A stretch of DNA of 64,000 nt, from assembly GCA_035559535.1 (NCBI GenBank), contig DATMBG010000034.1, forward strand, positions 1-64,000. The letters run 5' to 3'. This stretch comes from Candidatus Limnocylindrales bacterium (lineage in GTDB: Bacteria > Moduliflexota > Moduliflexia > Moduliflexales > JAUQPW01). The translations under genes and the position numbers were made by a program. The notes under the pieces are model-generated. The model made no database searches, was not told the DNA's origin, and saw nothing but the letters and a program-made list of their open reading frames with translations. Positions 46,694 through 64,000 of this stretch are shown here, piece after piece; position 1 is the stretch's first letter, and every line of letters starts with the position of its first letter.

Positions 46694-47090
46694 AGCTAAT
46701 ATCAAATAGACCCCAAACCCGGCGTAATATCCAGATCCTTCCTCAACTTTACCCTACTTTAGGAGTATTTCTCCAGTTAATCCAAACCCTACACAGCCCA
46801 AGGGTCCTTTTTTGTTTTCACTATCCTTTATCTTGGGTCTACCTTTCCGGTTTGCTCATACCCTCTAAGTCGTGGTTTTTCTTTAACTTCTCTAACCAAC
46901 TGGACAATTCCGCTCCTATCTGTGGGGATATTGGAACCGGAAAATACCCCAACAGATATTACCTCTATATAATGAAGTACGATGAACTATTTTATAAGTT
47001 TCGCTAAACCATCAAAGGTCATAGTAGGATATCATGACAGAAATGACTCTATTTTATGAAACAAATATTGTCAAGAAAAAACCTCTTTTT
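46694..47090. repeat. Integron leader-like repeat, copy A
   Basis: This segment is a diverged direct repeat of 56146-56560. Shared blocks include TTTAGGAGTATTTCTCCAG, CTAAGTCGTGGTTT, AGATATTAC and CAAATMTTGTMAAGAAAAAA. Similarity begins at the heptamer AGCTAAT (46694-46700), at the same place where copy B meets its first cassette (GCCCAAC, 56146-56152). No integrase remnant lies to its right. I interpret it as a second attI/leader region or a duplicated island boundary. Confidence 0.65.
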
Positions 47091-47428
47091 TGTATCTGTA
47101 TCCCTTTAGTAGGTGGAAAAAGAAACACCCCCATCCTCCCTCCAGGGGGACTGACATAGGGTTGCTGCTGCTGAATCCCCCCTGGAGGGAGGATGGGAGA
47201 GTGTTCAGACAGAAAAAGTGACACCTATTAAATTGTTGTAGAACCGTCTACTTTATGTTAAAGAACAAAAAGGCTTTCGACATATATAAATTTTTAAACA
47301 CCTTCCAGCCCAGGCTGGAAGGGATGGGCCCACCGCCTGGTACGGGTGGATGATCATCCACCCCTACAGTCAGGCCGCATAGGGCCAGTCTCAATCAGCA
47401 TGCAAAAAACTTTCAATCCCCTGCGTAT
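47091..47428. other. Intergenic palindromes
   Basis: No gene. CCCCCATCCTCCCTCCAGGG (near 47129) pairs with CCCTGGAGGGAGGATGGG (near 47186). CCTTCCAGCCCAGGCTGGAAGG occupies 47301-47322 (10-base arms, 2-base loop), and GGGTGGATGATCATCCACCC at 47344-47363 is a perfect 20-base palindrome. They look like extragenic repeats. Confidence 0.75.
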
Positions 47429-48385: not shown

Positions 48386-49009
48386 TCGCCCACCTGCAGA
48401 AAGCGGAAGATGTCCAGGAGAACCTTCAATGGCTTCATGTCCCAATCGTCGTAGAGATAGATGCGAATCTGCTCGCGTGGGAAGCGTTCCAAGTAGGGTT
48501 GAAGGAGACAGTAATAAAAGCCATTCGCTCTATATCGCCAGCCACAAGACCAATTCATTTGCTGGCATTCTTCTTCGGCATCGAGCGCCTGGGCGAAAAA
48601 AAGATGCTCGCGCCCTAACTGGACCATCATCAGATACGACGAATACGCTCGATCAACAGGGTGTCTCAGCACGGCAATCAACCGGGCGTGAGGAACGTAC
48701 AGTCGGATACGCTCCACATATGCCTCACCCACCGTAAGATATACCGGAGAGGCTTTCACCGATGGCGATGTGATGATCACGGGCTCCGCGGAACAATTCG
48801 GCATGATCTTCGAGCTTGAAGATTGTACTACTATTGAAGAATCGTTCGTCGCCAGGTCCGCAGAAATTTAGCCTCTCTCCGTTGAAGGCGAAGAAACGTG
48901 GTTCCTTGACCGGACTCATGTAAATTTGCGGGTGCTGTTTAAGCGCACGATCCAGGGCTGTAGTGCCACTCTTGGTTGCGCCAATGATCAGGAAATTGGG
49001 CATGGGCAT
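48386..49009 (-). pseudogene. Sulfotransferase gene, frameshifted and 3'-truncated
   Basis: Starts at the ATG at 49009 (or 49003). FLIIGATKSGTTALDRAL is the 5'-phosphosulfate loop of PAPS-dependent sulfotransferases, followed by MSPVKEPRFFAF. The frame breaks at IAIGES; the other frame resumes at KASPVYL and gives LRHPVDRAYSSY, the 3'-phosphate motif. One extra base in the TTT run at 48754-48756 (+ strand) accounts for this. The C-terminus is lost where it joins the ABC exporter remnant (after TFVPK). It would have sulfated a glycan or peptide product of the cluster. Confidence 0.8.
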
Positions 49010-49037
49010 ACCAACAACCTCTTGGCCTTTGACTCGG

Positions 49038-50420
49038 TCACACGTGTCTATTTTCACTGAGGAGGCAGCGATAGGCTTCGTAGCAAGCCCGCACCGTGTC
49101 ATAAGCGGCTTTCCAAGTTCCCCCTTTGTGATCATCTATCACCCTCCCATCCGCCTGGCAGGCGGTGAACCACTCACCCCACTCAGGGTCAAAAAAGTGC
49201 CCGAAGGTGAAATCGGCCAGTTGCTTGAAGTAGTCAATGTAGCGGCGCTGCCCACTCAGTGCATACATGAGCACCAGCGCTTGCATCCCTTCGCCTTGCG
49301 TCCACCAGGGTTTCTCAGTGCTGGCAAGAATCCCGTTCCGATACACATATTGATAAAAGCCCCCATGCTGTGCGTCCCAGCCGTGGCGCAAAGTAAAATC
49401 CAGGATACGCTCTGCCGTGGTGTAATATTCTGGAACCCCAGTAACCTGATGCATTCTGAGCAACAGCCAAGCCGCCTTCGAATTGTGCCCGATTAAGGCT
49501 TGGCCACGGACGGACATTGGGTCGTAGACCCAGTTCGTATGGAATCGTTCAAGGACACAGCCATATTTACGATCCACCATTTGCAAGACAATTACATCGG
49601 CAATCTGCCGGGCTCGCTCCAGGTAGGCAGCTTCCTTGGTTGCCTCGTGCAAAGCCATGATGGCGGTCAGCATAACCAACTGAATGTAGCTCATCTTGGC
49701 ATCCGATTTCACCTTCCAATCCGACTGGCAGCTTTCGTAATAACCCAGATGATTTTTGTCCCAAACCCGCTGCTCTAACAGACGATAGGTTCGTACCGCA
49801 TAGTCAAGTGCCGTCTGGTCTTGTGTGACACGGTGGTACTCTACCAAACCCAATAGCACGTACGCCTGTTGGAATGAGTTCTTATCAGGCTCTCTAACAC
49901 GTCCATTCCGATAGACGCTTTTGTACCACCCCCCGCGTTGTTTGTCCCACATGTTTTCGATGAGAAACCTGACTCCTTCCCTCGCCAGTTCGAGATAGGT
50001 GGGAGAACGGAACAATTCGTAGCCTATAGAGAAAGCGCAGACCATACGCCCCTGCATGGCGGTCGCTTTCAGATCATCCTTGTAGACCTGCCCCTGGCGA
50101 TCGAGGTGCGTGATAAAACCGCCGTAGCGCCGGTCAGGAGAATGTCGTTCCCAGAACGGCAATAGAGCCGACCGAATATGCTCTAGGAAAAAGTCGCCGG
50201 TATACTCAGCAGCACTTTTCAGCAGACACAACGGCTTCTGATGGCTTGGAGCAAGCGGCATGCGTGCCTTGAGCCTCGTTCGCGCCCCCTGCAGCCTGGC
50301 ATAGACCTCCCAGAAGGCAAAGGCGAACATATCATGCACGCCTCCATTACCCCGGGGAGACACGAGCCTCTTCACAGGCTTCTTCAACGGTGCTAAGATC
50401 AGATGACGAATCGTCTTCAT
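49038..50420 (-). CDS. AGE-family epimerase/isomerase (N-acylglucosamine 2-epimerase fold)
   Basis: 460 residues. An N-terminal extension of about 70 residues precedes an (alpha/alpha)6 barrel. Repeated motifs such as GGFITHLDRQG, GGWYKSVYRNG, GGFYQYVYRNG and EWFTACQADG, plus conserved His in LIGHNSKAAWLL, match the AGE superfamily (sugar epimerases, mannose isomerase). It may epimerise a sugar of the glycan built by the two neighbouring glycosyltransferases. The gene appears intact, in contrast to the two genes downstream. Confidence 0.82.
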   Translation of the reverse strand: MKTIRHLILAPLKKPVKRLVSPRGNGGVHDMFAFAFWEVYARLQGARTRLKARMPLAPSHQKPLCLLKSAAEYTGDFFLEHIRSALLPFWERHSPDRRYGGFITHLDRQGQVYKDDLKATAMQGRMVCAFSIGYELFRSPTYLELAREGVRFLIENMWDKQRGGWYKSVYRNGRVREPDKNSFQQAYVLLGLVEYHRVTQDQTALDYAVRTYRLLEQRVWDKNHLGYYESCQSDWKVKSDAKMSYIQLVMLTAIMALHEATKEAAYLERARQIADVIVLQMVDRKYGCVLERFHTNWVYDPMSVRGQALIGHNSKAAWLLLRMHQVTGVPEYYTTAERILDFTLRHGWDAQHGGFYQYVYRNGILASTEKPWWTQGEGMQALVLMYALSGQRRYIDYFKQLADFTFGHFFDPEWGEWFTACQADGRVIDDHKGGTWKAAYDTVRACYEAYRCLLSENRHV

Positions 50421-50458
50421 GGGAAACCTCCAAAAATGTTATTGGCTTAATGTCAAGT

Positions 50459-51136
50459 TCATCTGGCCCGGCGCCGGTCCAGTGCGGCTTTGAGAATTTG
50501 GGTGAACTCGCCCATGACCATCTCGCGGCAGCGAATTGTCAAGTTATTGGTGTGAACTCTTCTACGCATCACCACGTTGGGCAGTATAACGATTTCGAGG
50601 GCTGCTTCTTGGGCCCGAGCATACCAATCAACAAACTGACCAACATGCCAATGCGTCGCAAACAGCCCAACACGCATAAATGCCGCCCGGCGAATCAGCA
50701 TCGCGCTGATGTGCAAGCCGTTCAATGTCATTCCTACAAATCGGGCAGACTGGGCAGCAACACCGGCATCGGTACTGCTGAATTGCTCGAACTGTCCAAA
50801 CACCGCGTCCAGTTCTGGCCGAGCCGCGAGGGTTGTCATTTGTCGCGTGAGTTTCTCTGGCATCCACACATCGTCCGCATCGAGAAACGCAAGAAACTCG
50901 CCGCGCGCCTGCTCGACGCCGTGATTGCGCGCCGCACCCGGTCCCTGGTGCAGCTGAAAGCAATAGCGCACTGGGAATTGCTGTGCCACACGCGCGCTCT
51001 CATCCGTCGAGCCATCGTCCACGACGATAATCTCGATGGGACGATAGGTCTGCGCCAGCACGCTCTTTATCGCTTCAGACAGGTAACGCTCACCGTTATA
51101 GACCGGGATAATGACGCTGACCAGTGATGCAGTCAT
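50459..51136 (-). CDS. Family 2 glycosyltransferase (copy 1)
   Basis: 225 residues. SVIIPVYNGERYLSEAI and IIVVDDGSTDESARVA form the nucleotide-sugar site, and LAFLDADDVWMPEKL contains the Asp-Ala-Asp metal motif. It is a GT-A inverting transferase; donor and acceptor are unknown. About 28 residues around the DDGSTDE motif are identical to copy 2 (51844-52536), and the underlying DNA is nearly so, showing a recent duplication with later divergence of the C-terminal, acceptor-binding half. The start overlaps the methyltransferase gene by 41 bases. Confidence 0.92.
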   Translation of the reverse strand: MTASLVSVIIPVYNGERYLSEAIKSVLAQTYRPIEIIVVDDGSTDESARVAQQFPVRYCFQLHQGPGAARNHGVEQARGEFLAFLDADDVWMPEKLTRQMTTLAARPELDAVFGQFEQFSSTDAGVAAQSARFVGMTLNGLHISAMLIRRAAFMRVGLFATHWHVGQFVDWYARAQEAALEIVILPNVVMRRRVHTNNLTIRCREMVMGEFTQILKAALDRRRAR

Positions 51137-51839
51137 CTCCTAATGAGTGTTGGTAACTGGAAGAGTGCTCATCTTTATAATCCTTAAGCAGAAGACCGGC
51201 TTGCCTTATCAGTAATTTTTCGAACAGCCACCATGTAGCCTTTGTAATATCTCGATGTGAGAATGGAACTCGTTCAAGAACTGGTCGATTGCGATTGTCG
51301 GACGCTCCAAAAAGAGGCTTTTCAGGTTCCCACATATAATGATCAAAGATTAAGATGCTGTCTGGTTGAAGCAAAGCCCAGACTAACCGGGCGTCAGTCC
51401 CTACATCGGCGACACAATGACTCCCATCTATATAGATGATATCGTAACTGTTCTCACGCAGCAGTGGTAGGACGCCTTGTGACCTACCTATTATCTTGAT
51501 GACTTGAGACGTCCGCCCCGAGACCTGGATATTGTGATCGAACCGACTTTCGGCTCTTCGAGACCGAAAGATATCTACACAGATGATCAAGCAGGTAGGA
51601 TGGGTAAGAGTGTTCTCCAGGAACCAAAGTGCCGAACGCCCTTCGTAACTACCAATTTCAAGGAGACGCACGTAGGCTTTTCCTTTGAGATCACCCAGAC
51701 ATTTCCTCCAGACCGGTATTGCCTGTGCGGTATAGTCAGCCGTAAAAGGATGCACTAGGATGTGCCTCTTGAGCCTTTGCAGCAATCGTTCTAGCAGAAT
51801 GATTGCGGCGACTACTCTCTCAGGAATAACCGCCTTCAT
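51096..51839 (-). CDS. Class I SAM-dependent methyltransferase
   Basis: 247 residues. LLEIGSYEGRSALWF is the SAM-binding glycine loop, ICVDIF the acidic end of strand 2, and DIIYIDGSH the following strand, as in the Methyltransf_24 group acting on sugars or small hydroxyl groups. The C-terminus is rich in Ser/His (HSSSYQHSLGDD). Lies between the two glycosyltransferases, so its substrate is probably their product. The overlap with copy 1 (41 bases) is unusually long. Confidence 0.82.
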   Translation of the reverse strand: MKAVIPERVVAAIILLERLLQRLKRHILVHPFTADYTAQAIPVWRKCLGDLKGKAYVRLLEIGSYEGRSALWFLENTLTHPTCLIICVDIFRSRRAESRFDHNIQVSGRTSQVIKIIGRSQGVLPLLRENSYDIIYIDGSHCVADVGTDARLVWALLQPDSILIFDHYMWEPEKPLFGASDNRNRPVLERVPFSHRDITKATWWLFEKLLIRQAGLLLKDYKDEHSSSYQHSLGDDCITGQRHYPGL

Positions 51840-51843
51840 GCGC

Positions 51844-52536
51844 CTAACCTTCCTTCTTCAATTCACGCTTGCGCGCCACTGAACGTCTCAATGCAATAAA
51901 CACATTTTGCATATTCTCCGCCATGTTAACCGAGGTGTTCCTGTCGTGAATGCGCTTCAGTAATAGCACCCGATCAATCACTGCCATTGGCGTGCCAAGA
52001 TCATTCGCGCGGGCGAACCAATCGACATCTTCCGCTGTGCTCATCTGCGGGTCGAATATCCCAACGTGGTTAAACACTTGCCGTCGCGCAACGAGGGTCT
52101 GTATAAGACGGACCGACCAGTCGCCCTCCAGGATCTCTTGCCGGAGGAGCGTAGCGGGAAAGGGGCAGCCGGGTTCTAGAAAGAATTCGATTCGCGTGGT
52201 GGTGTATTGCACGTCGGGATGTTCGATCAAATAGCCAACCTGCACCTCCAGTTTCTCCGGCATCCACACATCGTCCGCGTCAAGAAACGCGAGGAATTCG
52301 CCATGCGCCTCCATGATGCCACGATTGCGCGCCGCGCCTGGACCACTGTGCGGCTGACGGTAATAGCGCACCGGATACCATTGGGCCACACGCGCGCTCT
52401 CATCCGTTGAGCCATCGTCCACGACGATAATCTCGATGGGACGATAGGTCTGTGCCAATACACTTTCAATTGCTTCCCCCAGATAGCGCGCGCTATTGTA
52501 GATTGGCACAACCACGCTGACGAGTGGCGCAGTCAT
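51844..52536 (-). CDS. Family 2 glycosyltransferase (copy 2)
   Basis: 230 residues. SVVVPIYNSARYLGEAI, VVDDGSTDESARVA and FLAFLDADDVWMPEKL are the GT2 elements. The C-terminal half (VFNHVGIFDPQMSTAEDVDW) has the acidic ED motif typical of the catalytic base. It shares the first half with copy 1. It overlaps the HprK-like gene by 4 bases, indicating operon translation. Confidence 0.92.
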   Translation of the reverse strand: MTAPLVSVVVPIYNSARYLGEAIESVLAQTYRPIEIIVVDDGSTDESARVAQWYPVRYYRQPHSGPGAARNRGIMEAHGEFLAFLDADDVWMPEKLEVQVGYLIEHPDVQYTTTRIEFFLEPGCPFPATLLRQEILEGDWSVRLIQTLVARRQVFNHVGIFDPQMSTAEDVDWFARANDLGTPMAVIDRVLLLKRIHDRNTSVNMAENMQNVFIALRRSVARKRELKKEG

Positions 52537-53576
52537 TGGAGTAGCATTTTCATCATGGTTTCCGATATCCGCTCCAGTTCTGTCCCCAGTTCAAGATGAT
52601 AACAGGGAATTTGTCTGACCAAATCGGCAAGGGCAAGGAATTCGAACTGTCCTGTGCCTGGGAATAGAAAGAGCGAACTCGGAGCGAAGGCTCGCAGTGC
52701 GGCGATCGGTGTAGCCAGGGTCAAAGTAGTTTCAGGACGCCCGGTGACCCGTGTCAGTAAAATCACCCGCACAGGCAAACCCGCGATCAAACTGCTCGGC
52801 TGATACTGATAGAGGTAAAGAAGCGCTTTTTCACTGGCGAGTTCTTCAGGGTTGCTAATGGCAGATAGCAAGGTCGGGAAATTCTCAAGGTGGACAGCAT
52901 TCAGTTTGGCAGAGTTGTAGAGGCTATAGACATACGGCACGCCATTAGGGACCAACAAGCAATAGTCGTCGCCGACATAGCGCCATCCTCCTACGAGAGC
53001 AGCTAAGGCGGTGGTTGATTTGCCACTACCTCCCGACCCTGCCAACAGAACCCCATCTTTCAAATGCCCAACCGCCCCGGCATGGACTAACAAACGCCCG
53101 TGTTGGCGCATCCACCAGTGGAGGATGGCACGCAGGGGAGCGCCCCGCTCGTAAGTCGGAACATGGCAAGCATCTCGAATCCAATACACTCCCAGGTTTT
53201 CTGTAATGTCCAGCGTGCTCACCGCGCCCACATCCGCAGATAGTGCAACATGGATGCGCGTATCACTGAAGCCGCGCACATCACCGCGCGCGATGCAGCC
53301 ATCTAATCCCCAAGGACGCGGCGGCATTGACGTGCCCGTCGAGGCGCTGTCCCACAGACAAATGGTCAAATCCGCCTCACCGATGTCGGAAGACACCGCC
53401 AGATGCTCCAGCGCCGGCGTGATAAACGGCACCAGTGCAGATCCCGCAAACCGCAGGCGAACGATATAACCCCCAATGGTGTAGTAGCGATCAATAGCAC
53501 CGCCGACGGTTTGCTCGGCGCGTTGATAGGCGTCGTATACGCCCTCGAAAAAGGCAAGCGGACTCGTCTCAGTCAT
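52533..53576 (-). CDS. HPr kinase-like protein
   Basis: About 347 residues from the ATG at 53576; the longer open frame upstream merely overlaps the PqqD-like gene. GVLLAGSGGSGKSTTALAAL is a Walker A loop in the HPr kinase/phosphatase arrangement, preceded by HAGAV, with the following YVGDDYCLL typical of HprK-type kinases. Such proteins, paired with PqqD-like proteins, occur in lasso-peptide and other RiPP or glycan clusters, where some phosphorylate the product. The substrate here is unknown. It overlaps both neighbours by 4-8 bases. Confidence 0.85.
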   Translation of the reverse strand: MTETSPLAFFEGVYDAYQRAEQTVGGAIDRYYTIGGYIVRLRFAGSALVPFITPALEHLAVSSDIGEADLTICLWDSASTGTSMPPRPWGLDGCIARGDVRGFSDTRIHVALSADVGAVSTLDITENLGVYWIRDACHVPTYERGAPLRAILHWWMRQHGRLLVHAGAVGHLKDGVLLAGSGGSGKSTTALAALVGGWRYVGDDYCLLVPNGVPYVYSLYNSAKLNAVHLENFPTLLSAISNPEELASEKALLYLYQYQPSSLIAGLPVRVILLTRVTGRPETTLTLATPIAALRAFAPSSLFLFPGTGQFEFLALADLVRQIPCYHLELGTELERISETMMKMLLQ

Positions 53577-54039
53577 GGTCCTCTTTCCTGATCGGCCAGC
53601 CCTGTTCATCCACTTCATGGATCGGATCGAGCAGCAACAAGTCTTGCAGATCGGTATACTTGTGGAGCGACGGCACCTGAAACGCGGAACGCGCCGCCAG
53701 ATTTGGATCCGGTATTGCGGGAGCAGCGTGGGGCACGGATGGTGCGTCATCCAACGGCGCAATGAGCGACTCGCGTTGCAACTCGATCAAGAACTGCTCC
53801 ACTCCTTGCTCGATGTCAGCGCAGTTGCCAGTATAGCGCTGGGTCAGCATGTGGATGATGTCGTTCACCGACGCGTTCTGCGCAATCTGTTCCCAGATCA
53901 CTGAGCCGACGCCATCAGTGCTGAAATATGCGCCGCTGTCGAAATCAATGATAATCGTCTCTCCGTCTATGGTCTGGTGAATCACTCTCGGAGTATTAAT
54001 CCTGAAAGTGGCTGATTGTAGCATTCTCTCCCTATTCAT
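53569..54039 (-). CDS. PqqD-family peptide-chaperone-like protein
   Basis: 156 residues. The N-terminal 90 residues (DGETIIIDFDSGAYFSTDGV, GSVIWEQIA, VNDIIHML) are the winged-helix PqqD fold that binds RiPP precursor leaders. A Pro/Ala-rich linker leads to a conserved tail with KYTDLQDLLLLDPIHEVDE. The tail is not part of ordinary PqqD and could be a docking or substrate segment. The gene opens the minus-strand cluster. No precursor peptide gene is evident nearby, although short ones can be missed. Confidence 0.82.
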   Translation of the reverse strand: MNRERMLQSATFRINTPRVIHQTIDGETIIIDFDSGAYFSTDGVGSVIWEQIAQNASVNDIIHMLTQRYTGNCADIEQGVEQFLIELQRESLIAPLDDAPSVPHAAPAIPDPNLAARSAFQVPSLHKYTDLQDLLLLDPIHEVDEQGWPIRKEDHD

Positions 54040-54440
54040 TATTCATCTCCTACGGCATTTGACCCCCTGTGCTTAACACGCACGAAACGGTTAGGACGAT
54101 GAGAATGTCAGCAAACGCCAGTTCTACGTTCGTATAGGTTCGATCTAGGCATACTCGTACACGGGGACTTGAATCAAACGCTTGGGTTTACTTTGTTGCC
54201 AAGCCATCTTTTGGAGGCGTATCACTGTGTCGGGCGAAAACAACTGCTCGCCTCAGCACAGTCCCGAGCCCTGTTTTCTCAGCGAGAGTATCTCCCTTTT
54301 TGACTACTTTGAGCAAGGGACTGAAAGGGCCTAATGTAGCTTCAAATATCTCTGTTTAACATTTCAGACACTTCATTGCCTCCTCCTCAAGTGATCAGAT
54401 TTAGGTATATTCTAGCCGTCCTTCGCCATAAAAAGACGCC
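54040..54440. other. Junction between the peptide/glycan cluster and the integron cassettes
   Basis: No gene. GCTTAAC and GTTAGGA about 24 bases apart (near 54070-54096) resemble attC cores but are too close for a normal site. The stretch may contain the promoter of the PqqD-led operon, but I see no clear boxes. Confidence 0.4.
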
Positions 54441-54513
54441 AGCTAACACTGAAGCTCACCTGCCACTATAGAGCGCCAGTGGAATAGCGGTTAAGTGGAG
54501 CGTCTTGTTGGGC
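54441..54513 (-). other. Integron attC site of the NmrA cassette
   Basis: 73 bases bounded by AGCTAAC (54441-54447) and GTTGGGC (54507-54513), the inverted core heptamers of attC (one mismatch from RYYYAAC on the left). Imperfect inner arms (GAAGCTCACC...GTGGAGCGTCTT) allow folding. It lies directly after the stop of the NmrA-like gene, as required for a cassette read on the minus strand. Confidence 0.7.
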
Positions 54514-54545
54514 AGTATGAGGTCTGACACCGCGTCGAACCGCGA

Positions 54546-55418
54546 TCAGCGACCACTCCTTTGCCAAGCGTCAGCAGTCTCTCGGGCGAAGTCACGGTAG
54601 TTGCGAGGAGCGTGACCCAATAGTTCCGTCAATGCCTCGATGTCATTGTCGTTCGCGATAAAGCCGCGCTCCACAAACCCTTGGAACATCATACGCAAAT
54701 CGAAGGCCAACCAATTCGGAACGTTCTGCCGCATTTGTTCTTCCCACGCGTCGAAGTCATGTCCCGCATAGCTAATTTCCTTTTGCAGGATCTCACTCCA
54801 TATCGAGGCTGCACCCGGACCGCTCAAGAGGCTCGGGCCGACCAGGTTGTAGATTTTACCTTGATGGCCGTCGCTCGTCAGGACAATGGCCGCGGCTTCG
54901 GCGATGTCACGCACGTCTACCGCTGAAATACCCTGTGAGCCCAAGGGCATTGGGTAAATCCCAGCCACTGTCAGCGGTTCCTTCAGCATCGCATCATTTT
55001 GAAAGAAGTAGCTCGGGCGGAGAATGGTGTAGGGGACATCGAAATCCTTCAGCGCTGCTTCGATCATCAACTTCGACGCGAAGTGCGGTACGTCCTTGAA
55101 ACGATCCGCTTGAAAAACCGATTGGTACACCACATGCTGAATCTTCAGCTTCTTTGCCAGATTGCAGACGATGAGACCCTGCGTCAACTCGTCAGGAACG
55201 ACCGCATTCAGCAAATACACTTTCTCTACGCCATCGAGCGCTTGTTCAATTGTAACTGGATCGAGCAAATCGCCAATGGCAACTTCAACGTCCGACGGGA
55301 GCGTCTTGCTCTTGGCCTCGCTGCGAACCAGTGAGCGGACGTTCGTATTGCGTTTCCGGAGCTCCTTGATCACCTGAGAGCCAACCCTACCGGTGCTGCC
55401 TGTTACCAGAATCTTCAT
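54546..55418 (-). CDS. NmrA-like NAD(P)-binding oxidoreductase (integron cassette)
   Basis: 290 residues. ILVTGSTGRVGSQVIKEL is the dinucleotide loop and VYQSVFQAD, TILRPSYFFQN and GISAVDVRDIAEAAA follow the atypical SDR/NmrA pattern. These proteins bind NAD(P) and act as quinone reductases or redox sensors; the substrate is unknown. The gene with its attC forms a cassette of about 1 kb between 54441 and 55460. Codon usage is unlike the flanking host genes. Confidence 0.9.
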   Translation of the reverse strand: MKILVTGSTGRVGSQVIKELRKRNTNVRSLVRSEAKSKTLPSDVEVAIGDLLDPVTIEQALDGVEKVYLLNAVVPDELTQGLIVCNLAKKLKIQHVVYQSVFQADRFKDVPHFASKLMIEAALKDFDVPYTILRPSYFFQNDAMLKEPLTVAGIYPMPLGSQGISAVDVRDIAEAAAIVLTSDGHQGKIYNLVGPSLLSGPGAASIWSEILQKEISYAGHDFDAWEEQMRQNVPNWLAFDLRMMFQGFVERGFIANDNDIEALTELLGHAPRNYRDFARETADAWQRSGR

Positions 55419-55453
55419 CTTGAAGGATCCTCTTGCGCTATGCGTTTTGGACC

Positions 55454-55521
55454 ACCTAACGGCCTGCGCTTGAGCGGCGGCTAAGCGCAGCGAAGCCGTC
55501 CGCTCAAAGCGCTTGTTGGGC
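55454..55521 (-). other. Integron attC site of the toxin-antitoxin cassette
   Basis: 68 bases, bounded by ACCTAAC (55454-55460) and GTTGGGC (55515-55521). Inside, GCGCTTGAGCGG pairs with CCGCTCAAAGCGC with one bulged base, and CGGCT...AGCCG nests within. This is the classic fold of an attC recombination site. It follows directly the stop of the DUF5615 gene on the minus strand. It is the strongest integron signal in the window. Confidence 0.92.
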
Positions 55522-55526
55522 GGGCA

Positions 55527-55883
55527 TTACTCATCAAAGCGGCGAATGCGAAAGATTTCTGGCGCAATAACGGCAAAGGCACGTGGCAATTGGGCAGCAT
55601 GTTGATTGATCGCCAAAGCCACTATCTCTGCCTTCCGGGTAGGTGATAGTCCTGCCAGGCGTATCAATATAATCCCGTGTGCATAAAGACGCTGACGAAA
55701 GATCATCTCCCCAAAATCCTTATCCGCAGTCAGTAGCAAAGCGGTTTCCTGATTCGCTCGTGCCAAAACAACATCATCGGATATTCCTGGCTCCATTTCG
55801 GCAACATACCACACCACATGACCATCTCGCCGAAGACGCTCAACAATATGACGGTCAACACTTTCATCAGCCACGAAATTCAT
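55527..55883 (-). CDS. DUF5615 PIN-like toxin (integron cassette)
   Basis: 118 residues. VADESVDRHIVERLRRDGH at the start and TADKDFGEMIF in the middle carry the acidic residues of the DUF5615/Mut7-C PIN-like fold, presumed RNase. It overlaps the DUF433 gene by 4 bases. The pair is the common DUF433-DUF5615 toxin-antitoxin-like module, which in cassettes may stabilise the array. Toxicity is inferred. Confidence 0.85.
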   Translation of the reverse strand: MNFVADESVDRHIVERLRRDGHVVWYVAEMEPGISDDVVLARANQETALLLTADKDFGEMIFRQRLYAHGIILIRLAGLSPTRKAEIVALAINQHAAQLPRAFAVIAPEIFRIRRFDE

Positions 55884-56116
55884 GTTTCCGTCTCAGCCAC
55901 AGGGTAAATCACGTCAGCGCGCAAGGCTTCTTTGGCAAAGGCGATAGCTGCCAGCACTGCTTCGCGTGTCAGCCGAGGGTGGGCCTCAAGAATCTGTTCG
56001 ATGGTTTCCCCTGCCGCCAATTTCTCCAGAATGAGTTCCACCGTGATGCGCGTGCCTGCGACCACAGGTTTGCCCATCATAATTTTGGGATTTGATACGA
56101 TCAATTGCTTTTCCAT
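55880..56116 (-). CDS. DUF433 antitoxin-like protein (integron cassette)
   Basis: 78 residues from the ATG at 56116, after GAAAGGTGATTC. VSNPKIMMGKPVVAGTRITV is the DUF433 signature, followed by a helix-turn-helix-like LEAHPRLTREAVLAAIAFA. It is the first gene after the leader of the integron and the probable antitoxin of the DUF5615 partner downstream. Confidence 0.88.
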   Translation of the reverse strand: MEKQLIVSNPKIMMGKPVVAGTRITVELILEKLAAGETIEQILEAHPRLTREAVLAAIAFAKEALRADVIYPVAETET

Positions 56117-56145
56117 ATGAATCACCTTTCACAACTACTATGCCC

Positions 56146-56560
56146 GCCCAACATGAAATAAACACCAAAAGTGTCCGAATATCCAGCCCTCTGGACTATC
56201 CCTATTACCCCATTTTAGGAGTATTTCTCCAGGAAATTCAGACATTACACACCAAAAGCGTCCTTTTCCTTGTTTTTAATAGACCTCTTCTCGAGTGTAT
56301 TTCCCTGATTTACTTATATCCTAAGTCGTGGTTTCCCCTTAACTTCTCCATGCTTCGGTAGAATTTTACCCCTCTATTCTTTGAAATATTCATACCGAAA
56401 ACTACACCGCAAGATATTACACTTTTATACGATGTTGCACGAGGAGCTACTCTACAACTCGATAAACAAAAATCATCGTCACTTAAGCTAGTTCATTTTA
56501 AAATTACAAAACAAATCTTGTAAAGAAAAAATTTCTTTTTTCCAAAACTCGACTATATTT
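56146..56560. other. Integron leader / attI-like region, copy B
   Basis: The heptamer GCCCAAC (56146-56152) marks the boundary with the first cassette. To its right is about 400 bases of A+T-rich non-coding DNA that is also present, diverged, at 46694-47090. It lies between the divergent cassettes (minus strand) and the integrase remnant (plus strand), exactly where an attI site and cassette promoter belong. The exact attI could not be delimited. Confidence 0.65.
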
Positions 56561-56645
56561 TTTTCCAAAAAATGCGCCTTAATTTCGGTAGTTAACCGTC
56601 TCGGTTGACATGAGTTTATTTTTTACTGTGAAAAGGAGGAATACC

Positions 56646-57100
56646 ATGCCAGAAAAACCCAAACTGCTCGATCCATTACACAATACCCTCCGTCCCACAA
56701 GCCCTACAGCAAACGCTAAGATTTGGCTTATGTGGATGGGAATAAACGCTTTATTTACTGTCAAGGGGGACGTTTAACCTACTCAGGGGGATGTTTCTTG
56801 TTGGGAAACAGTAGGTTAAGTGTCTCCCTTGACAGAGTAATGGGGGCAAAGGAGGTGGAGGAGTTTATAACCCATCTGGCCCGTGAGCAAACCGTGGTGG
56901 TCAGTACGCAGAATCAGGCATTAAATGCTATTGTGTTTCTCTACAAAGAGGTTTTGGGAATTAAATTCAACCAATTACACGTAGAACAGGCAAAAAAGCC
57001 TGAAAAGCTGCCGGGGGTCTTTACGTGTAGGGAGTCATCAGTCCGGCAGAGAGGATGTAAAAATTTTGATGGTTCTGGCTTAAAAATTCTTCTGGGCTAA
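56646..57100 (+). pseudogene. intI: Degraded integron integrase (tyrosine recombinase)
   Basis: AAGGAGG stands 6-12 bases before the ATG at 56646, which begins PEKPKLLDPLHNTLRP, a typical integron-integrase N-terminus. A frameshift follows; another frame gives YSKR, a stop, then LAYVDGNKRFIYCQGG, matching the Tyr-Val-x-Trp-Ile-x-Arg-Phe-Ile part. A palindromic insert interrupts it at 56759-56836, then EVEEFITHLAREQTVVVSTQNQ, ALNAIVFLYKEVLG and PEKLPGVFT continue the N-terminal core-binding domain. The catalytic domain is missing. The gene runs divergently from the cassettes, as in functional integrons. Confidence 0.85.
56759..56836. mobile_element. Palindromic MITE-like insertion in the integrase remnant
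   Basis: CTGTCAAGGGGGACGTTT (from 56759) and AAGTGTCTCCCTTGACAG (to 56836) form 26-base imperfect arms around a 26-base loop. The 78-base element separates two parts of the integrase that should be adjacent. No clear target duplication is seen. Confidence 0.65.
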
Positions 57101-57577
57101 AACTCCCGTCGGCAAACGCTATCCTGCCTAAGGATCCGGGTCAATTTAGTCGGTATCTTAGTTCCGTTAGGAGTGATCTATTCATAGCAAAATCTTTTGA
57201 CTTTCCCTGCTATAATTAGATTGCCCCGCTGGGGCCGTAGTATTAAGTTAAGGGTGGAAGTCCTTGTTAAAGACAAAAACACCCCCACCCTCTTCCTCCC
57301 CCGCTTCGCAGGAGAGTGGACTTGGACCACAGCGTTCCTTCCCCTGCGGTAGCGGGGGAAGGTCAGGAAGGGGGCCTTAACTTAAGGTCATGGTGCGCTG
57401 GGGCTGTACAACAAGAATTACCTATCCCCAACTGATTAGCACTGATAGCTCGCCTAAAATCCCGTTGACATTTCTTTCCATTCATGCTAACACTTGTTAG
57501 TCATACAGATTTCGTAGACTTTACATTTGTTTTGAGGGGTTGGTAGTTTTTACTTTTTATAAAGGAGAATATAGCGT
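57101..57577. other. Intergenic region upstream of the CHAT gene
   Basis: No gene. A GCCCCGCTGGGGC palindrome (near 57223) and a large inverted repeat (CCTCTTCCTCCCCCGCTTCG... with ...GCGGGGGAAGGTCAGGAAGG, about 57290-57377) occupy the middle. The CHAT promoter is on the right side. Confidence 0.6.
57465..57493 (+). promoter_or_regulatory. Putative CHAT gene promoter
   Basis: TTGACA (57465-57470) and an extended -10 (TGC then TAACAC, 57488-57493) are spaced by 17 bases; the start codon is about 85 bases downstream. The -35 is perfect, the -10 weak. Confidence 0.5.
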
Positions 57578-59281
57578 ATGCCCACACTACCCACACAGCG
57601 AAACCTGCCCTCCGGCACTCCAGGCCGGAATAATTCCTCCCTTTCAAAACCTCGAAGGCTTTCTTTAAGGCTGGCCTTAGGGTCTATTACAGAAGTGGAC
57701 GCTTCCGCACTGGTTGTAGGACACTTTAAAGGCGTTGCCCCCCGTAGTGCAGAACTTGCCGTTGATCAGGCCATTGGATCGATTATTAATGATTTCGAGA
57801 ATCGGCGGATGATCAGTGGAAATCTGGGGGAGATTTTCTTTATTCCAACACACCGAACCAGGTTATACGCTTCTACGGTGATACTGGCCGGATTGGGTAA
57901 CTTCTCCAGCTTTACCAAGGATAGTTTGAGACTGGTGGGAATGAATCTTATCAAAGGGCTGGTAAGTACCAAAATTTATGATTTCGGTATTGTTTTAATG
58001 GGCTCCAATGCAGGAAATTTATCGGTAGAAGATGCGACTCGAACCCTTATATACGGAATCTATGAAGGACTACAGAATTATGATCCAGACGGCAGGATCC
58101 AGGAAATGACCCTGGCCGAGATCAATGAGGAGAAATATCGAAAAATCCGAGAGGTCCTTTTGAATTTCCTGAAAAGTGATCTCTTAACTCAAAAACTGGA
58201 TATCTCCTTTTCTGAATGTGCCTTGACCGGAATCCAGGCCGAACCGACCAAGGAAAAAATATCTCCTTTAAATATTGTAATTCGAACCGAGGGAACCAAA
58301 CTTATTTTTTCTGCCCTGGGAGAGTCGGCTACCCTGCGTAAGGAGCAAGTCATCTCTCCAAAAATCATCGAAGGCATCCGGAAGAAATTGGAGGATTCGT
58401 ATGGAAAACCTCAGGCCGAAGAAATTCAAAAAGCCCATGGAAAACTCCTCTTTGACCAGGTGGTCCCGGAAGATATCCAGAAGGTTATCCTGGCCTGCAA
58501 GGGTCGTCCCATCGCGTTATCCTTAGATTCCTATGCAGCTTCTATTCCCTGGGAGCTTATGTACACCGATCGCCCAGACTGTCCGGGTTTTCTGGGACTC
58601 AACTTCCCCATTGGCCGACAGCTTATGATTGATGCCCCGGTTACCAAGTGGCTGGCCCGCAGAAAGATAAAAGGTAAGCTAGACTTCCTTTTAATAGGGG
58701 ATCCCACTGCAGATCTCCCGGGAGCTGCCGAGGAGGCAAGGATCCTTTCAAGGTTTTTGAACTCTTTACAGGGAGTTCAGGTAACCACCCAAATAGGACC
58801 CAAAGACAACACTGCTGAAGAGGTTTTAGCTCAATTAGGTTCAGGAACCTACGATATCGTCCATTATGCCGGACATGCCTATTTTGATCGGCGAGATCCC
58901 TCTGAAAGTGCCTGGATATTTAAGGACGGGGGAAGGGTGCGCGCCCGGGATTTGGTAAATCTATCCAGCCTTCCGGCATTGCTTTTTTCAAATGCCTGTG
59001 AAGCCGGAGTTGTTGAGCCGATTTACCATACGGATAAATACGGGGTCGCAGAAGCTCTCCTGCGGGCGGGTCTTATTAACTATATCGGAACCTTCTGGCA
59101 AATCAACGACTCACCGGGAGCTTTTTTTGCCGGAAAATTCTATGAAAAACTCCTCCAGGAAAGAACTATCGGAGAATCTTTGGTTGAAGCCAGAAAAGAT
59201 ATGATTCGAAAATTCGGCTACAAAGAGTTAAACTGGGGAAGTTATATGTTATACGGAAATCCAATGTTTCGATTTAAGTAG
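57578..59281 (+). CDS. CHAT-domain protease fused to an M17-aminopeptidase N-terminal-like domain
   Basis: 567 residues, ATG at 57578 after AAAGGAG. Residues about 25-170 (VDASALVVGHFKGVAPRSAE, ISGNLGEIFFIPTH, STVILAGLGNFSSFT) have the pattern of the macro-like N-terminal domain of leucine aminopeptidases. A middle region of about 150 residues leads to a CHAT domain. The CHAT catalytic dyad is complete: His433 in VHYAGHAYF and Cys474 in LFSNACEAG. CHAT proteases act in bacterial cell-death and defence pathways. No metallopeptidase half is present, so the M17-like part may sense a ligand. The gene stands alone next to the degraded integron. Confidence 0.85.
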   Translation: MPTLPTQRNLPSGTPGRNNSSLSKPRRLSLRLALGSITEVDASALVVGHFKGVAPRSAELAVDQAIGSIINDFENRRMISGNLGEIFFIPTHRTRLYASTVILAGLGNFSSFTKDSLRLVGMNLIKGLVSTKIYDFGIVLMGSNAGNLSVEDATRTLIYGIYEGLQNYDPDGRIQEMTLAEINEEKYRKIREVLLNFLKSDLLTQKLDISFSECALTGIQAEPTKEKISPLNIVIRTEGTKLIFSALGESATLRKEQVISPKIIEGIRKKLEDSYGKPQAEEIQKAHGKLLFDQVVPEDIQKVILACKGRPIALSLDSYAASIPWELMYTDRPDCPGFLGLNFPIGRQLMIDAPVTKWLARRKIKGKLDFLLIGDPTADLPGAAEEARILSRFLNSLQGVQVTTQIGPKDNTAEEVLAQLGSGTYDIVHYAGHAYFDRRDPSESAWIFKDGGRVRARDLVNLSSLPALLFSNACEAGVVEPIYHTDKYGVAEALLRAGLINYIGTFWQINDSPGAFFAGKFYEKLLQERTIGESLVEARKDMIRKFGYKELNWGSYMLYGNPMFRFK

Positions 59282-59400
59282 AAAACCATAGCCCTGCTAC
59301 ATCTTTGCGAACTTTACGCCTTTCAGGGATTCCGGGGTTAAAATTAAGCCGCCCGGGACGCTAAGCAGGCGCAAAGCCCGCAGGATAAAGAGAAAGAACC

Positions 59401-60549
59401 ATGAAAATCACCGATGTCCAAACATTCCTGACAGGTACCCGGTGGCGGAATTTTCTTTTTGTGAAAATCTCTACCGATGAGGGAATCACCGGTGTGGGGG
59501 AGGCCACTCTGGAAGGGAAAGAGAAAGCAGTAGAAGCAGCCATTCACCAGTTGAAGCGGCGGAACGTTGTGGGGGCAAATCCTTTCAACATTGAAGAGAT
59601 ATGGATGCGTATGTATCGTAACGAGTTCTGGCACGGGGGACCGGTTCTCCTTACGGCCATGAGCGGGATCGAAATAGCCTGCTGGGATATTGTGGGAAAG
59701 GCCTTAGGACAACCTGTTTACAATCTCCTCGGAGGCCGCTGCCGGGACAAAATCCTCACCTACGCCAACGGCTGGTACGGCGGGGAACGAACTCCAGAAA
59801 ACTTTGCCCGACGGGCTAAACGGGTGATTGAAAAAGGGTATAAGGCCCTTAAATTTGATCCGTTTGGCTCCGCAGGCCGGGAAATGAGTCGACAGGAAAA
59901 AGTTAAGTCCATCGATATTGTTGCAGCGGTTCGGGATGCCGTAGGTCCGGATATAGAAATTTTCATAGAGGTCCACGGAAGATTCAGCCCCATGACCGCC
60001 ATCGAAATCGCTAAGGAACTGGAACCTTATCGACCCGGCTGGTACGAGGAACCGGTTCCACCCGACAACCATGACGCCATGGCTCTGGTGGCCCATAAAA
60101 TCAATATCCCCGTCGCAACCGGTGAACGCCTCTATACCCGATATGGATTCCGAAGACTCTTTGAACTCCAGGCCGCCAGCATCATCCAACCCGATATCCT
60201 TCACACCGGAGGAATTCTGGAAACCAAAAAGATCGCCGCCATGGCCGATACTTATTATATGACCGTCGCTCCCCACAATCCCAACGGGCCCATCTCTACG
60301 GCAGTGGCCGTTCAGATAGATGCCTGCCTGACCAATTTTTATATTCAGGAGTGCCTGGATGATTTTGATGTCCCCTGGAAAAGTCAACTGGTTAAAGGAG
60401 CTCTGGAAATCAAGGATGGTTATATCACCATTCCCGACAGGCCCGGCATCGGTGTCGAACTCAATGAAGAAGTTATCCAGGAACATCCCTACCTGGAAGA
60501 TGCCTTCTTCAATATGTGGGGTGAGGGATGGGAAAAGGATTTTGCTTAA
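59401..60549 (+). CDS. Enolase-superfamily dehydratase, D-galactonate dehydratase-like
   Basis: 382 residues of the mandelate racemase/muconate lactonising group. EVHGRFSPMTAIEIAKELEP and YEEPVPPDNHD hold metal ligands, PVATGERLYTRYGFRRL the third ligand and its neighbours, and VAPHNPNGPIS the catalytic His. The arrangement follows galactonate dehydratases (DgoD). It would dehydrate a sugar acid. It precedes genes for a membrane protein and a hydroxyacid dehydrogenase, not a recognised galactonate operon, so the sugar is uncertain. Confidence 0.88.
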   Translation: MKITDVQTFLTGTRWRNFLFVKISTDEGITGVGEATLEGKEKAVEAAIHQLKRRNVVGANPFNIEEIWMRMYRNEFWHGGPVLLTAMSGIEIACWDIVGKALGQPVYNLLGGRCRDKILTYANGWYGGERTPENFARRAKRVIEKGYKALKFDPFGSAGREMSRQEKVKSIDIVAAVRDAVGPDIEIFIEVHGRFSPMTAIEIAKELEPYRPGWYEEPVPPDNHDAMALVAHKINIPVATGERLYTRYGFRRLFELQAASIIQPDILHTGGILETKKIAAMADTYYMTVAPHNPNGPISTAVAVQIDACLTNFYIQECLDDFDVPWKSQLVKGALEIKDGYITIPDRPGIGVELNEEVIQEHPYLEDAFFNMWGEGWEKDFA

Positions 60550-60604
60550 TCTCATTGTTTATCTTTCCCGATAGCGCGAACCCTCGCGCTACCGGCCTGA
60601 ATCC

Positions 60605-62248
60605 ATGGTGAAAGGTAACCTCAAGGGGGGAGTGTCCCTTGTAACCAAGATGGGATTGCTCCCCATCCTTTTCTATTTGATCTTTTTCTGGATCCTTAAC
60701 GACCCCCTTATCGGATTATTCTCTACCCATTTGTTTGCAGATCAAGGGGACGGATTACAGAATCTCTGGAATCTGTGGTGGGTCCATAAGGCCGTCACCC
60801 AGCTTCATCAATCCCCCTGGCATACAATTTATCTCCGCTATCCGTCCGATATGACCCTCCTGGGACATACCTTGAATCCCTTCAACGGTTTCATGGCGTC
60901 AGGATTGCTAAAATTTTTGACGCTGACGGAAGCTTACAATTGTATCGTTATTTTTTCCTTCGTTATGGGCGGACTGACCGCTTTTTTACTAGCCTATTAT
61001 TTCACCCGGTCTTACGGCGGTAGCCTCCTGGCAGGCTATATATTTACCTTCTCCAATTATCACTTTGCCCATGCCCAGGGACACCTGAACCTGGAATCTC
61101 TGGAATGGATCCCTCTCTTTGTACTCTGCTGGTACCGATGGGTTACCAAACCCGGCGTGGCGATGGCCCTGACCTCTGCCTTTGTACTCTTTGCGGTTAT
61201 TCTGTGCGATTATTATTACTTTTTTTATTCGGTTTTGATCGGCTTTTTGATTTTGATCTGGTATGCCTTCCAAAAGGATCTCTTTTTCTTTCTCAGAAGG
61301 GCGTATTTAACTTCTCTGATAATCTTCCTTACGGCTACCCTCCTGACTACAGGACCTCTGGTTATTTCCTTGCTGCTCGTAAACAGGAAAGATCCCTTTA
61401 TAGGTGCCCACCAACCCCAGGAATATTCCCTGGACCTGCTGGCCCCTTTCATCCCCGGAGGTCATTGGCGCTTTGCCCATTTAACCCGGTTTTATTGGTC
61501 CAAATTACCCGGTAATATCGATGAAAGTAGCGTTCATATCGGTGTTTCCGTTTTCTGCCTTCTGATGTTGGTATGGATCCGGAGGCATAAAGTTCCACTC
61601 CGGGATTTAGGACTCTGGTACCTTATCCTCGTTTTCTTTACCGTCCTGAGTCTGGGACCCGTCTTGCAGGTAGGGGGAAAGGGGATCCCCTTCATAAAAT
61701 TGCCCTATGCCCTGCTGGAAGTGGTATTCCCTCCGATAAAACTTTCCGGTGCTCCCGTACGGATGATGGTTATCCCCATACTCAGCGCGGCAGTTATCTG
61801 CGCTGCAGGATTTAAATCCCTTTTCCATGGATTTATCGGAAAGCGAGGGTGGACAGGATTCTTCTTGATCCTGCTTTTCCTGGAATATCTACCGAAACCC
61901 ATTCCGGCCTCTAAACTCAATGCACCGGACTACGTGAAGGTTTTGAAGGACTTACCGGATACCGGGGGGATCATCGATACCACCGCCCGACCTACTCTGG
62001 CACTTTACTATCAAACCATTCACGAAAAACCTATGGCCTTTGGCTATGCTTCTCGAATTCCTACCAGTGTCAACAACAAAGATCAAAAGCTATTACAAAT
62101 TCTTAACGATCAGCGATACCCTTTACTTTATTGTGACTATTATATTAAATACTTGATTACGGACACCCTTACCAACGTCCCGGAAGGTCGTTTGCTTTAT
62201 CAGGACGCAAAGGTAAAGTTGTACGATCTGGAAAATCAATGCCCATAG
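60605..62248 (+). CDS. Polytopic membrane protein, GT-C glycosyltransferase-like
   Basis: 547 residues with about eleven transmembrane helices. The first loop carries FADQGDGLQNLWNLWWVHKA, the acidic motif found after helix 1 in many GT-C type mannosyltransferase-like proteins, and a later soluble part (DLPDTGGIIDTTARPTLALY) forms the C-terminal domain. The donor would be a lipid-linked sugar, but enzyme activity is only inferred. It lies 55 bases after the dehydratase gene. Confidence 0.75.
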   Translation: MVKGNLKGGVSLVTKMGLLPILFYLIFFWILNDPLIGLFSTHLFADQGDGLQNLWNLWWVHKAVTQLHQSPWHTIYLRYPSDMTLLGHTLNPFNGFMASGLLKFLTLTEAYNCIVIFSFVMGGLTAFLLAYYFTRSYGGSLLAGYIFTFSNYHFAHAQGHLNLESLEWIPLFVLCWYRWVTKPGVAMALTSAFVLFAVILCDYYYFFYSVLIGFLILIWYAFQKDLFFFLRRAYLTSLIIFLTATLLTTGPLVISLLLVNRKDPFIGAHQPQEYSLDLLAPFIPGGHWRFAHLTRFYWSKLPGNIDESSVHIGVSVFCLLMLVWIRRHKVPLRDLGLWYLILVFFTVLSLGPVLQVGGKGIPFIKLPYALLEVVFPPIKLSGAPVRMMVIPILSAAVICAAGFKSLFHGFIGKRGWTGFFLILLFLEYLPKPIPASKLNAPDYVKVLKDLPDTGGIIDTTARPTLALYYQTIHEKPMAFGYASRIPTSVNNKDQKLLQILNDQRYPLLYCDYYIKYLITDTLTNVPEGRLLYQDAKVKLYDLENQCP

Positions 62249-62305
62249 GTCCCTTAAATAATCGAAAAGATAAGCTAACAGAAACAGAATGAGAGGTCGA
62301 CGCTT

Positions 62306-63337
62306 ATGAGTCACACTCAAAGAGAATCTTTAAAAGTTCTTTTACTTGGGAACATGGCGGTTACTGCCCTGGAGGGTCTCCAGGCAAGGGTTCAAGTACC
62401 TTGTGAATTTATTCCTGTTCCGGGAAAACTGGAGGATCCGAAAGCTCTCTCTTTGATAGAAGAAGCCGACGTGCTGGTGGCGCCCGGTTTTACAAAGAAA
62501 ATGGGGGCAGTTGCAAAGAAACTCCGACTGGTTCAGGCTCCTTTCGCCGGTTTAGAGGCCTTTGACTTAGAGGCGCTTCCTCCAGGTGTTGTTCTGGCCA
62601 ATGTCTATAACCATGAAGTCAGTATTGCGGAATTTGTCCTGATGGCTATGTTGGTTTTGAGTAAACAACTCAAAAAATACGATGCGGATCTAAGACGGGG
62701 TTTCTGGGGTCATAAGCCGTTTTTTGCCGAGCCTTTGGTAGGAGAGTTGCAAAACAAGATTTTAGGTCTTATCGGCTTCGGCCACATTGGTCGGGAGATT
62801 GCCGTGAGGGCGCGGGCTTTTTCCATGAAGATTTGGGCCATCCGAAAACACGGTAAGGAAGGAATTCAGGATTCCAAAGCTCCCCAGATAGATTTCCTTG
62901 GAGGGAAAGAAGATTTACCTCAACTCCTGAGCCAGGCCGATTTTATCGTTCTCTGCTGCCCTCTTACCGAAGAAACCCGGGGTCTCATCGGAACCAGGGA
63001 ATTTAACAGGATGAAACCTACCGCCTATTTAATCAACATTGCCCGGGCCGAAATTGTGAATGAAGAGGCTCTTTATCAGGCTTTATGGGAAAAGAAGATT
63101 GCAGGGGCAGCTCTCGATGTGTGGTACCGGTATCCTCGGGGGTATCCTTCCACTTCCGACGAGCAGTGCTTTCCCTCTCGATTCCCCTTTCAGGATCTGG
63201 ATAACGTGATTATGACCCCGCATATTTCTGGAAGAGCAGAAAGTACCCTTCAAGGTCGTTTACGGGATATAGCAGATAATATAAGTCGGGTATACCACGG
63301 ACAGCCGTTGAAGAACGTGGTGTATGTGGGAAAATAA
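62306..63337 (+). CDS. D-2-hydroxyacid dehydrogenase
   Basis: 343 residues. LGLIGFGHIGREIAVRARAF is the NAD-binding loop, CPLTEETRGLIG and NIARAEIVNEEALYQAL hold the catalytic Arg, and MTPHISGRAEST the catalytic His. The family includes glycerate, phosphoglycerate and hydroxypyruvate reductases; the substrate is not determined. A bidirectional hairpin terminator follows. Confidence 0.9.
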   Translation: MSHTQRESLKVLLLGNMAVTALEGLQARVQVPCEFIPVPGKLEDPKALSLIEEADVLVAPGFTKKMGAVAKKLRLVQAPFAGLEAFDLEALPPGVVLANVYNHEVSIAEFVLMAMLVLSKQLKKYDADLRRGFWGHKPFFAEPLVGELQNKILGLIGFGHIGREIAVRARAFSMKIWAIRKHGKEGIQDSKAPQIDFLGGKEDLPQLLSQADFIVLCCPLTEETRGLIGTREFNRMKPTAYLINIARAEIVNEEALYQALWEKKIAGAALDVWYRYPRGYPSTSDEQCFPSRFPFQDLDNVIMTPHISGRAESTLQGRLRDIADNISRVYHGQPLKNVVYVGK

Positions 63338-63340
63338 AAC

Positions 63341-63421
63341 AAAAGAAAGAACGGAGATACAGGATTTACCATATCTCGTAAAGACGCTCTGCAGGGCGTC
63401 CTATCTACCGTTCTTTCTTTT
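63341..63421. terminator. Bidirectional hairpin terminator
   Basis: AAAAGAAAGAACGGAGAT pairs with ATCTACCGTTCTTTCTTTT. An inner hairpin GACGCTCTGCAGGGCGTC lies at about 63383-63400. It sits between two convergent genes, and A-rich and T-rich ends suit termination on both strands. Confidence 0.7.
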
Positions 63422-63439
63422 TAAACTCCCGGGGTCAAT

Positions 63440-64000
63440 CTAAGCTCTGGACTGAAGCAGTTGGTTCAAGGGAGGTTTAATGTTGGCCTTTTTCTTGAGT
63501 TCTTCTATAAACTCCCGATAGGCCGTACTCTGCTTCTGTTGAAGAAGGCTCCTTCGAAGGTTTTCCTTCTCCTCCTGGAATTTCTTTTCATCGATTCCGG
63601 GCTTTTCTACGACCTTTAAAAGGACGAAACCTCCGGGTGTTTTAATGGGATCACTGACCTGATTTACCTCTAAAGAAAAGGCCGTATGAATGATCTCTTC
63701 TGATTTTTCGGCCATATCATTCAGAAACCATCGTCGGTTGAAGGGTTCCGGTTTAACCGGGGTTAATTGATACTTTTCCAATAAAGATTCCCAGGAAGCC
63801 CCGGCTTTAAGTTCTGCCAGGAACTCGTTGGCTTTTTTCTCGGCCAACTCTGTGGCCTTATTGTCTATAATCTTCTCTTTAACCTGTTCTCTGGCTTCTT
63901 CCAGGGAGGGGATGTAGGAGTCTTTTTTCTCCACAAGCTGCAGGATATAAAATCCGGCACCCGGCACTTCTACCACCTGGCTGATTTCTCCAGGAGAAAG
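63440..64000 (-). CDS. Parvulin-type peptidyl-prolyl isomerase (3' part)
   Basis: The frame continues beyond the right edge; about 186 residues are visible. LSPGEISQVVEVPGAGFYIL is the end of one parvulin/SurA domain, and PIKTPGGFVLLKVVEKPG is a second similar module, both as in PpiD/SurA-type periplasmic foldases. The C-terminal part has a coiled helix (EEKENLRRSLLQQKQSTAY). The class (SurA or membrane-anchored PpiD) cannot be decided without the N-terminus. Confidence 0.82.
   Translation of the reverse strand, partial: LSPGEISQVVEVPGAGFYILQLVEKKDSYIPSLEEAREQVKEKIIDNKATELAEKKANEFLAELKAGASWESLLEKYQLTPVKPEPFNRRWFLNDMAEKSEEIIHTAFSLEVNQVSDPIKTPGGFVLLKVVEKPGIDEKKFQEEKENLRRSLLQQKQSTAYREFIEELKKKANIKPPLNQLLQSRA

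Follow-up and report, generated by a model that had tools for sequence, protein, structure and literature searches.

Signal-gated CHAT proteases of conflict systems are already known. In Craspase, a CHAT protease with a His/Cys dyad is autoinhibited and is freed by a foreign-nucleic-acid signal (PMC9729208). In type IV Thoeris, a caspase-like protease is activated by N7-cADPR made by a TIR protein, according to a passage of PMC12847820 that cites the work. In type II Thoeris, macro domains form oligomers and bind ligands of the ADPR type (PMC11204291). Here we describe a new variation, in which a CHAT domain is paired with the N-terminal domain of M17 leucine aminopeptidases (M17N). The gene lies in a 64,000-nucleotide stretch of DNA (the window) from a Candidatus Limnocylindrales bacterium. 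The first-pass annotation knew of no described system of this form, and none was found in the literature that we searched, the coverage of which was incomplete. The features of the gene are as follows.

57453 to 57577, + strand: conserved 5' region with TTGACA (57465-57470) and the Shine-Dalgarno sequence AAAGGAG (57561-57567), from alignment with the sister-species locus L004
57578 to 59281, + strand: M17N-CHAT fusion protein P0001, 567 aa, an open reading frame with an ATG start, supported by Pfam and by a dN/dS of 0.10 against the sister copy
57713 to 58084, + strand: Peptidase_M17_N domain, residues 46-169, supported by Pfam, by hhalign to PepA-type proteins and by conservation in 27 proteins
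58175 to 58432, + strand: fast-evolving inter-domain linker, about residues 200-285
58439 to 59260, + strand: CHAT caspase-like protease domain, residues 288-561, from Pfam
58874 to 58876, + strand: codon of His433, the predicted catalytic His
58997 to 58999, + strand: codon of Cys474, the predicted catalytic Cys

Pfam profiles bore out the annotated architecture of an M17 N-domain that lacks the metallopeptidase half and is joined to CHAT. Peptidase_M17_N matched P0001 at 41.6 bits (cut-off 23.4; E 1.5e-10), and CHAT (PF12770) matched at 107 bits (cut-off 24; E 1.6e-30) over model positions 4-289 of 289, with a secondary match to Peptidase_C25. The M17 catalytic domain gave no Pfam match in P0001 at E values up to 10, and CHAT occupies its place. 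Judged by these profiles, P0001 is not an M17 aminopeptidase, and its whole-domain match together with the predicted His/Cys dyad assigns it to the CHAT family. His433 and Cys474, which had been called intact, are indeed present and are invariant in 27/27 M17N-CHAT proteins. The sole match of P0001 in PADLOC was 'BovA', over the CHAT region (E 2.2e-12). Csx29 (TPR-CHAT), the protease of Craspase in type III-E CRISPR, has the CHAT domain and the His/Cys dyad in common with P0001, whereas it is CRISPR-bound and has a TPR as its regulatory part, in place of which P0001 has M17N and no TPR by Pfam; the two sequences match weakly (E 0.14-0.28). No type III-E gRAMP locus was recognised among the subset of neighbouring ORFs that was scanned. 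Elsewhere in the same genome there are two ordinary M17 proteins, with open frames of 504 and 570 codons, as well as two further CHAT genes. An AlphaFold2 model built from the window protein and its sister had a pLDDT of 33 and was left out of fold searches.

We then considered the origin of the M17N domain. Its profile matched PepA-type proteins of the same genome across the whole domain (hhalign E 7.9e-7), and in a PDB search with the full profile the N-terminal part found aminopeptidases and the C-terminal part found CHAT entries, the latter matches being weak. The homology to PepA thus extends over the full N-terminal domain, but PepA continues into a metallopeptidase catalytic domain, where P0001 has CHAT instead. 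A direct sequence comparison with macro domains was negative: P0001 had no Pfam Macro match, and M17N aligned to the genome's own macro domain (PF01661-type) with an hhalign E value of 0.22 and a probability of 0.3%. M17_N is a member of the Macro clan in Pfam (PMC6500376); as no sequence match accompanies this placement, we claim kinship with macro domains at the level of fold only. At that level M17N is a candidate likeness to TM-macro ThsA of type II Thoeris, in which a macro-fold receptor for an ADP-ribose-type signal controls the effector (PMC11204291); TM-macro ThsA, however, has a true macro domain and membrane helices, whereas M17N has no detectable macro sequence match. The full-length alignment with PepA-type proteins also favours another explanation, possible but clearly the less probable, that the protein serves the cell's own physiology rather than immunity, as a regulatory or stress protease in which M17N would oligomerise and CHAT would cleave endogenous proteins in a controlled way. 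M17 aminopeptidases are hexameric, and their N-domain can serve as an oligomer assembler. A role of M17N as a mere oligomer assembler is compatible with all the data.

Whether the fusion is genuine was examined by comparison with other genomes. The gene is present at 96% amino acid identity in a separately binned sister species (MAG JZ-2, L004), which was the sole match in a DNA-pattern scan across genome contigs. A plasmid-encoded LCAT-M17N-CHAT protein of Rhizobium leguminosarum aligned to residues 27-567 of P0001 with about 35% identity. Because the same architecture recurs in both, the fusion is genuine rather than a product of assembly. Between the window and sister copies, dN/dS was 0.10 for the whole gene, 0.07 within M17N and 0.06 within CHAT; the two domains had a dN of 0.015 and a dS of 0.23, and the linker, which at 85 residues is short, had a dN of 0.042 and a dS of 0.034. 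The gene is under purifying selection, the strength of which agrees with a function in the cell's own physiology. With 27-locus recurrence, the invariant dyad and this selection, the pairing is not due to chance. It is accordingly very improbable that we are dealing with an artefact, such as a chimeric or decayed aminopeptidase or an integron-captured gene cassette. Such an origin would suit the accessory segment with an integrase remnant 125 bp away, but the selected copy in the sister genome, the same fusion in distant bacteria and the position of the gene beyond the junction, in conserved DNA, all speak against it.

That junction was located by aligning the window with the sister genome. 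Homology covers 57453-64000 and, with gaps, 35736-43010, with none between. It restarts 125 bp 5' of the start codon, so the conserved side opens with the M17N-CHAT gene, whose annotation as lying at the edge of accessory DNA was correct. The segment of about 14 kb from 43010 to 57453 has no counterpart at the same place in the sister species. It contains glycosyltransferase-, methyltransferase-, toxin-antitoxin-, PqqD- and HPr-kinase-like genes and truncated ABC-transporter genes, and could represent an island for a surface polysaccharide or a peptide natural product. The toxin-antitoxin-like genes include a DUF5615 (PIN-like)/DUF433 pair at 55527-56125. The first-pass annotation had also placed the gene next to an integron. 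A degenerate, truncated tyrosine-integrase fragment of 125 codons is present at 56723-57100, with only the SAM-like N-domain (Phage_int_SAM_4), but no attC array was identified, and a general repeat scan that used no attC-specific model showed no pair of attC-like repeats to either side of the gene. With only an N-terminal integrase fragment and no such repeats, a true integron or integron cassette was rejected, and the claim was overstated. By eye, a similar integrase remnant lies 5' of the sister gene (L004 7690-7760), in which case the insertion would predate the species split. A dispersed short repeat at 57236-57396, with 29 further partial matches in the same genome (72-90% identity), has TTAAGTTAAGG/CTTAACTTAA-like ends and resembles a MITE- or REP-like element adjoining the junction.

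The gene had been credited with its own promoter. Both the TTGACA and the Shine-Dalgarno sequence are kept in the sister, but a promoter scan upstream of the gene found no complete sigma-70-type site; Rfam and tRNA scans returned nothing. On the 3' side lies a mandelate-racemase-type enzyme, followed by what appear from sequence to be a membrane protein and a D-2-hydroxyacid-dehydrogenase-like gene. These conserved neighbours (59401 onward) look metabolic or membrane-related, which counts against a defence function; as a non-defence neighbourhood conserved in both sister species, they favour the physiological explanation. No recognised defence gene adjoins the window gene except the DUF5615/DUF433 pair in the variable segment. 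No TIR was found near it, one partial TIR being present on another contig, and no homologues were found in phage records or viral contigs.

To place P0001 in its family, 27 loci with the M17N-CHAT pair were examined, 26 of them besides the window. Invariant across the 27 proteins, along with the dyad, are His429, Asn472, GLG 105-107, Gly48 and several residues of the CHAT core; D63 of M17N is conserved. Most relatives are larger than P0001, with one or more alpha/beta-hydrolase domains preceding M17N-CHAT and with TPR-S and TIR added in some. Three classes were distinguished.

Class (i), M17N-CHAT alone or with a tail: the window and sister proteins, L117 (706 aa) and L029 (with TPR-S)
Class (ii), LCAT-like alpha/beta-hydrolase-M17N-CHAT, about 1,010-1,060 aa: L025, L090 and L113, and L114 by length and similarity
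Class (iii), DUF7379-LCAT-M17N-CHAT, about 1,800-2,200 aa: with TPR-S in L088 and L119, and with a C-terminal TIR in six genomes

Independent Pfam M17_N matches were obtained for two LCAT-M17N-CHAT proteins (G658, E 2e-11; G748, E 5.7e-8). The M17N of class (iii) is divergent, with an hhalign E value of 2.6e-7 for four of these proteins; the Pfam M17_N match is weak in L088 and L029 and absent in L119. Full-length matches were patchy, occurring in 3/385 genomes across bacteria, 4/345 of one phylum, and 6/56 and 15/277 of two classes. A housekeeping gene would not be expected to spread in this way, which weighs against a role in general physiology. In a CHAT tree the M17N proteins fell into two clades, the window protein standing beside L025 and L090, and a single-clade constraint was not rejected (p-AU 0.187). 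Among the nearest CHAT relatives without M17N in this tree are proteins of a separate family of roughly 1,000-1,100 aa (L091 7216-10131, L092 6390-9626 and similar loci), of which the L092 copy is a guanylate cyclase-CHAT-TPR protein (Pfam on L007, the same gene). Another protein without M17N, of 659 aa, is a TIR-CHAT fusion (L129 4913-6889).

The LCAT or DUF7379 alpha/beta-hydrolase fused in most Pfam-examined relatives raises the question of whether M17N is an adaptor that couples CHAT to such a partner. CHAT would then activate the lipase-like partner, and the target of the window protein would be a hydrolase from another place in the genome. In VMAP conflict systems, caspase genes and alpha/beta-hydrolase genes reportedly always occur together (PMC7159879), which agrees with this idea, but the window protein, L029 and L117 have no fused hydrolase, and for the window gene no such partner was identified; we regard the adaptor role as rather unlikely. 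A related comparison is with the alpha/beta-hydrolase-CHAT-TPR-S proteins of NAD-linked conflict systems. TPR-S occurs also in L088, L119 and L029, and pYEATS in the neighbour of L025, whereas both the hydrolase and TPR-S are absent from the window protein. The domains that bear the Pfam names TPR-S and pYEATS are said to come from work by Burroughs and Aravind in J Bacteriol in 2020.

We surveyed the loci for defence genes. TIR was found in 12/27 M17N-CHAT loci compared with 2/43 CHAT loci without M17N (Fisher p 8.6e-5), as scored in loci of varying length with a single profile, which took its seed from an M17N-CHAT locus and was iterated across the two sets together. Because several positive loci belong to one family, a recount by family was made, which gave 5/11 M17N-CHAT against 2/36 control CHAT families (p 0.005). 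With TIR counted only as a separate gene, the figures were 10/27 against 1/43 (p 1.7e-4). In six genomes TIR is in the same polypeptide, C-terminal to CHAT. Pfam confirmed TIR_2, ThsB_TIR and CAP12-type TIR in example loci, and the gene at L089:4192-4656 was identified as ThsB by PADLOC (E 2.7e-44) and as ThsB_TIR by Pfam. Thoeris of types I, II and IV has TIR (ThsB) in the operon; the window gene has no adjacent TIR, whereas relatives such as L089 have ThsB_TIR. The caspase-like protease and TIR system of the type IV effector are likened to TIR-linked M17N-CHAT by description, as given in the passage cited above, and not by sequence. This association and the TIR fusions in the wider family argue against a purely physiological protease.

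SIR2, TPR-S, nSTAND and clostripain are associated less frequently than TIR, and the counts for SIR2, nSTAND, patatin and C11, seeded from M17N loci only, are descriptive and carry no enrichment test. PADLOC reported a ThsA-like SIR2 at L119. The L119 cluster (6787-18941) comprises this SIR2, a STAND-like ATPase, a CAP12-type TIR, a TIR and a 2,180-aa DUF7379-LCAT-M17N-CHAT-TPR-S-TIR protein, and looks like a multi-input NAD-linked immune system. At L025 (R. leguminosarum), SIR2_2-pYEATS and an NS endonuclease lie directly downstream. Pfam found nSTAND1 at L029 and L030 and patatin at L122. In four genomes a clostripain C11 gene lies directly upstream of M17N-CHAT (L087 8808-9713 and L088 3974-5365 by Pfam; L117 10631-12115 and L126 13580-14893 by profile), a possible two-protease cascade.

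The closest relatives of the window gene differ in this respect. The near clade (window, L025, L090, L113, L114) has no TIR, and all TIR-positive loci lie outside it. Immune-like context within it was seen only at L025; L090, L113 and L114 adjoin ordinary genes, as a physiological role would have it. The TIR enrichment belongs to the wider family and does not reach the window's own clade. The proposal of a defence effector fits the wider family, with its TIR enrichment and its TIR and TPR-S fusions, but is not shown for the window copy itself, which has metabolic-looking neighbours and a near clade mostly without defence neighbours. Comparative sequence evidence thus supports a defence role for the wider family, and the role is unproven for the window copy. 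Since relatives with informative contexts are multi-gene or have extra domains, the proposal of a single-gene system is doubtful.

Taking these results together, we favour, with moderate confidence, M17N-CHAT as a family of signal-gated caspase-like proteases of bacterial immunity with M17N as the regulatory half, of which the window gene would be a compact member. The setting is probably NAD/TIR-linked immunity. Craspase, type IV Thoeris as described in the passage cited, the type II Thoeris macro domains, the Macro clan placement and the TIR association together suggest that M17N is a regulatory, perhaps ligand-sensing half. The N-terminal non-catalytic domain of M17 leucine aminopeptidase would have found a second use as the half that regulates a CHAT (caspase/separase-like) cysteine protease. 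At rest, the His433/Cys474 protease would be kept inactive. M17N would receive a signal, which may be an altered state of assembly or the binding of a small nucleotide-like ligand, with an NAD derivative as the most plausible one, and the protease would then be released to cleave cellular or partner proteins, leading to growth stop or death of the infected cell. The protease activity, its autoinhibition, the gating through M17N by a signal and the anti-phage role are all inferred. A more specific version, which we put forward only as an unlikely conjecture, is that M17N with its macro-clan fold was recruited as the receptor of NAD-derived messengers made by TIR and switches on the caspase-like protease, in a Thoeris-like sensor-effector arrangement; some lineages would combine its TIR producer and TPR-S sensor with lipase-like hydrolases in a single polypeptide.

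If the favoured reading is right, M17N-CHAT would add a regulatory domain derived from a universal aminopeptidase to the known bacterial switches of caspase-like proteases. An 'M17_N' annotation does not always denote an aminopeptidase. The 27-locus set, with its invariant dyad and conserved M17N motifs, permits direct mutational tests, and M17N offers a specific candidate for a sensor of TIR-linked immunity that can be put to the test.
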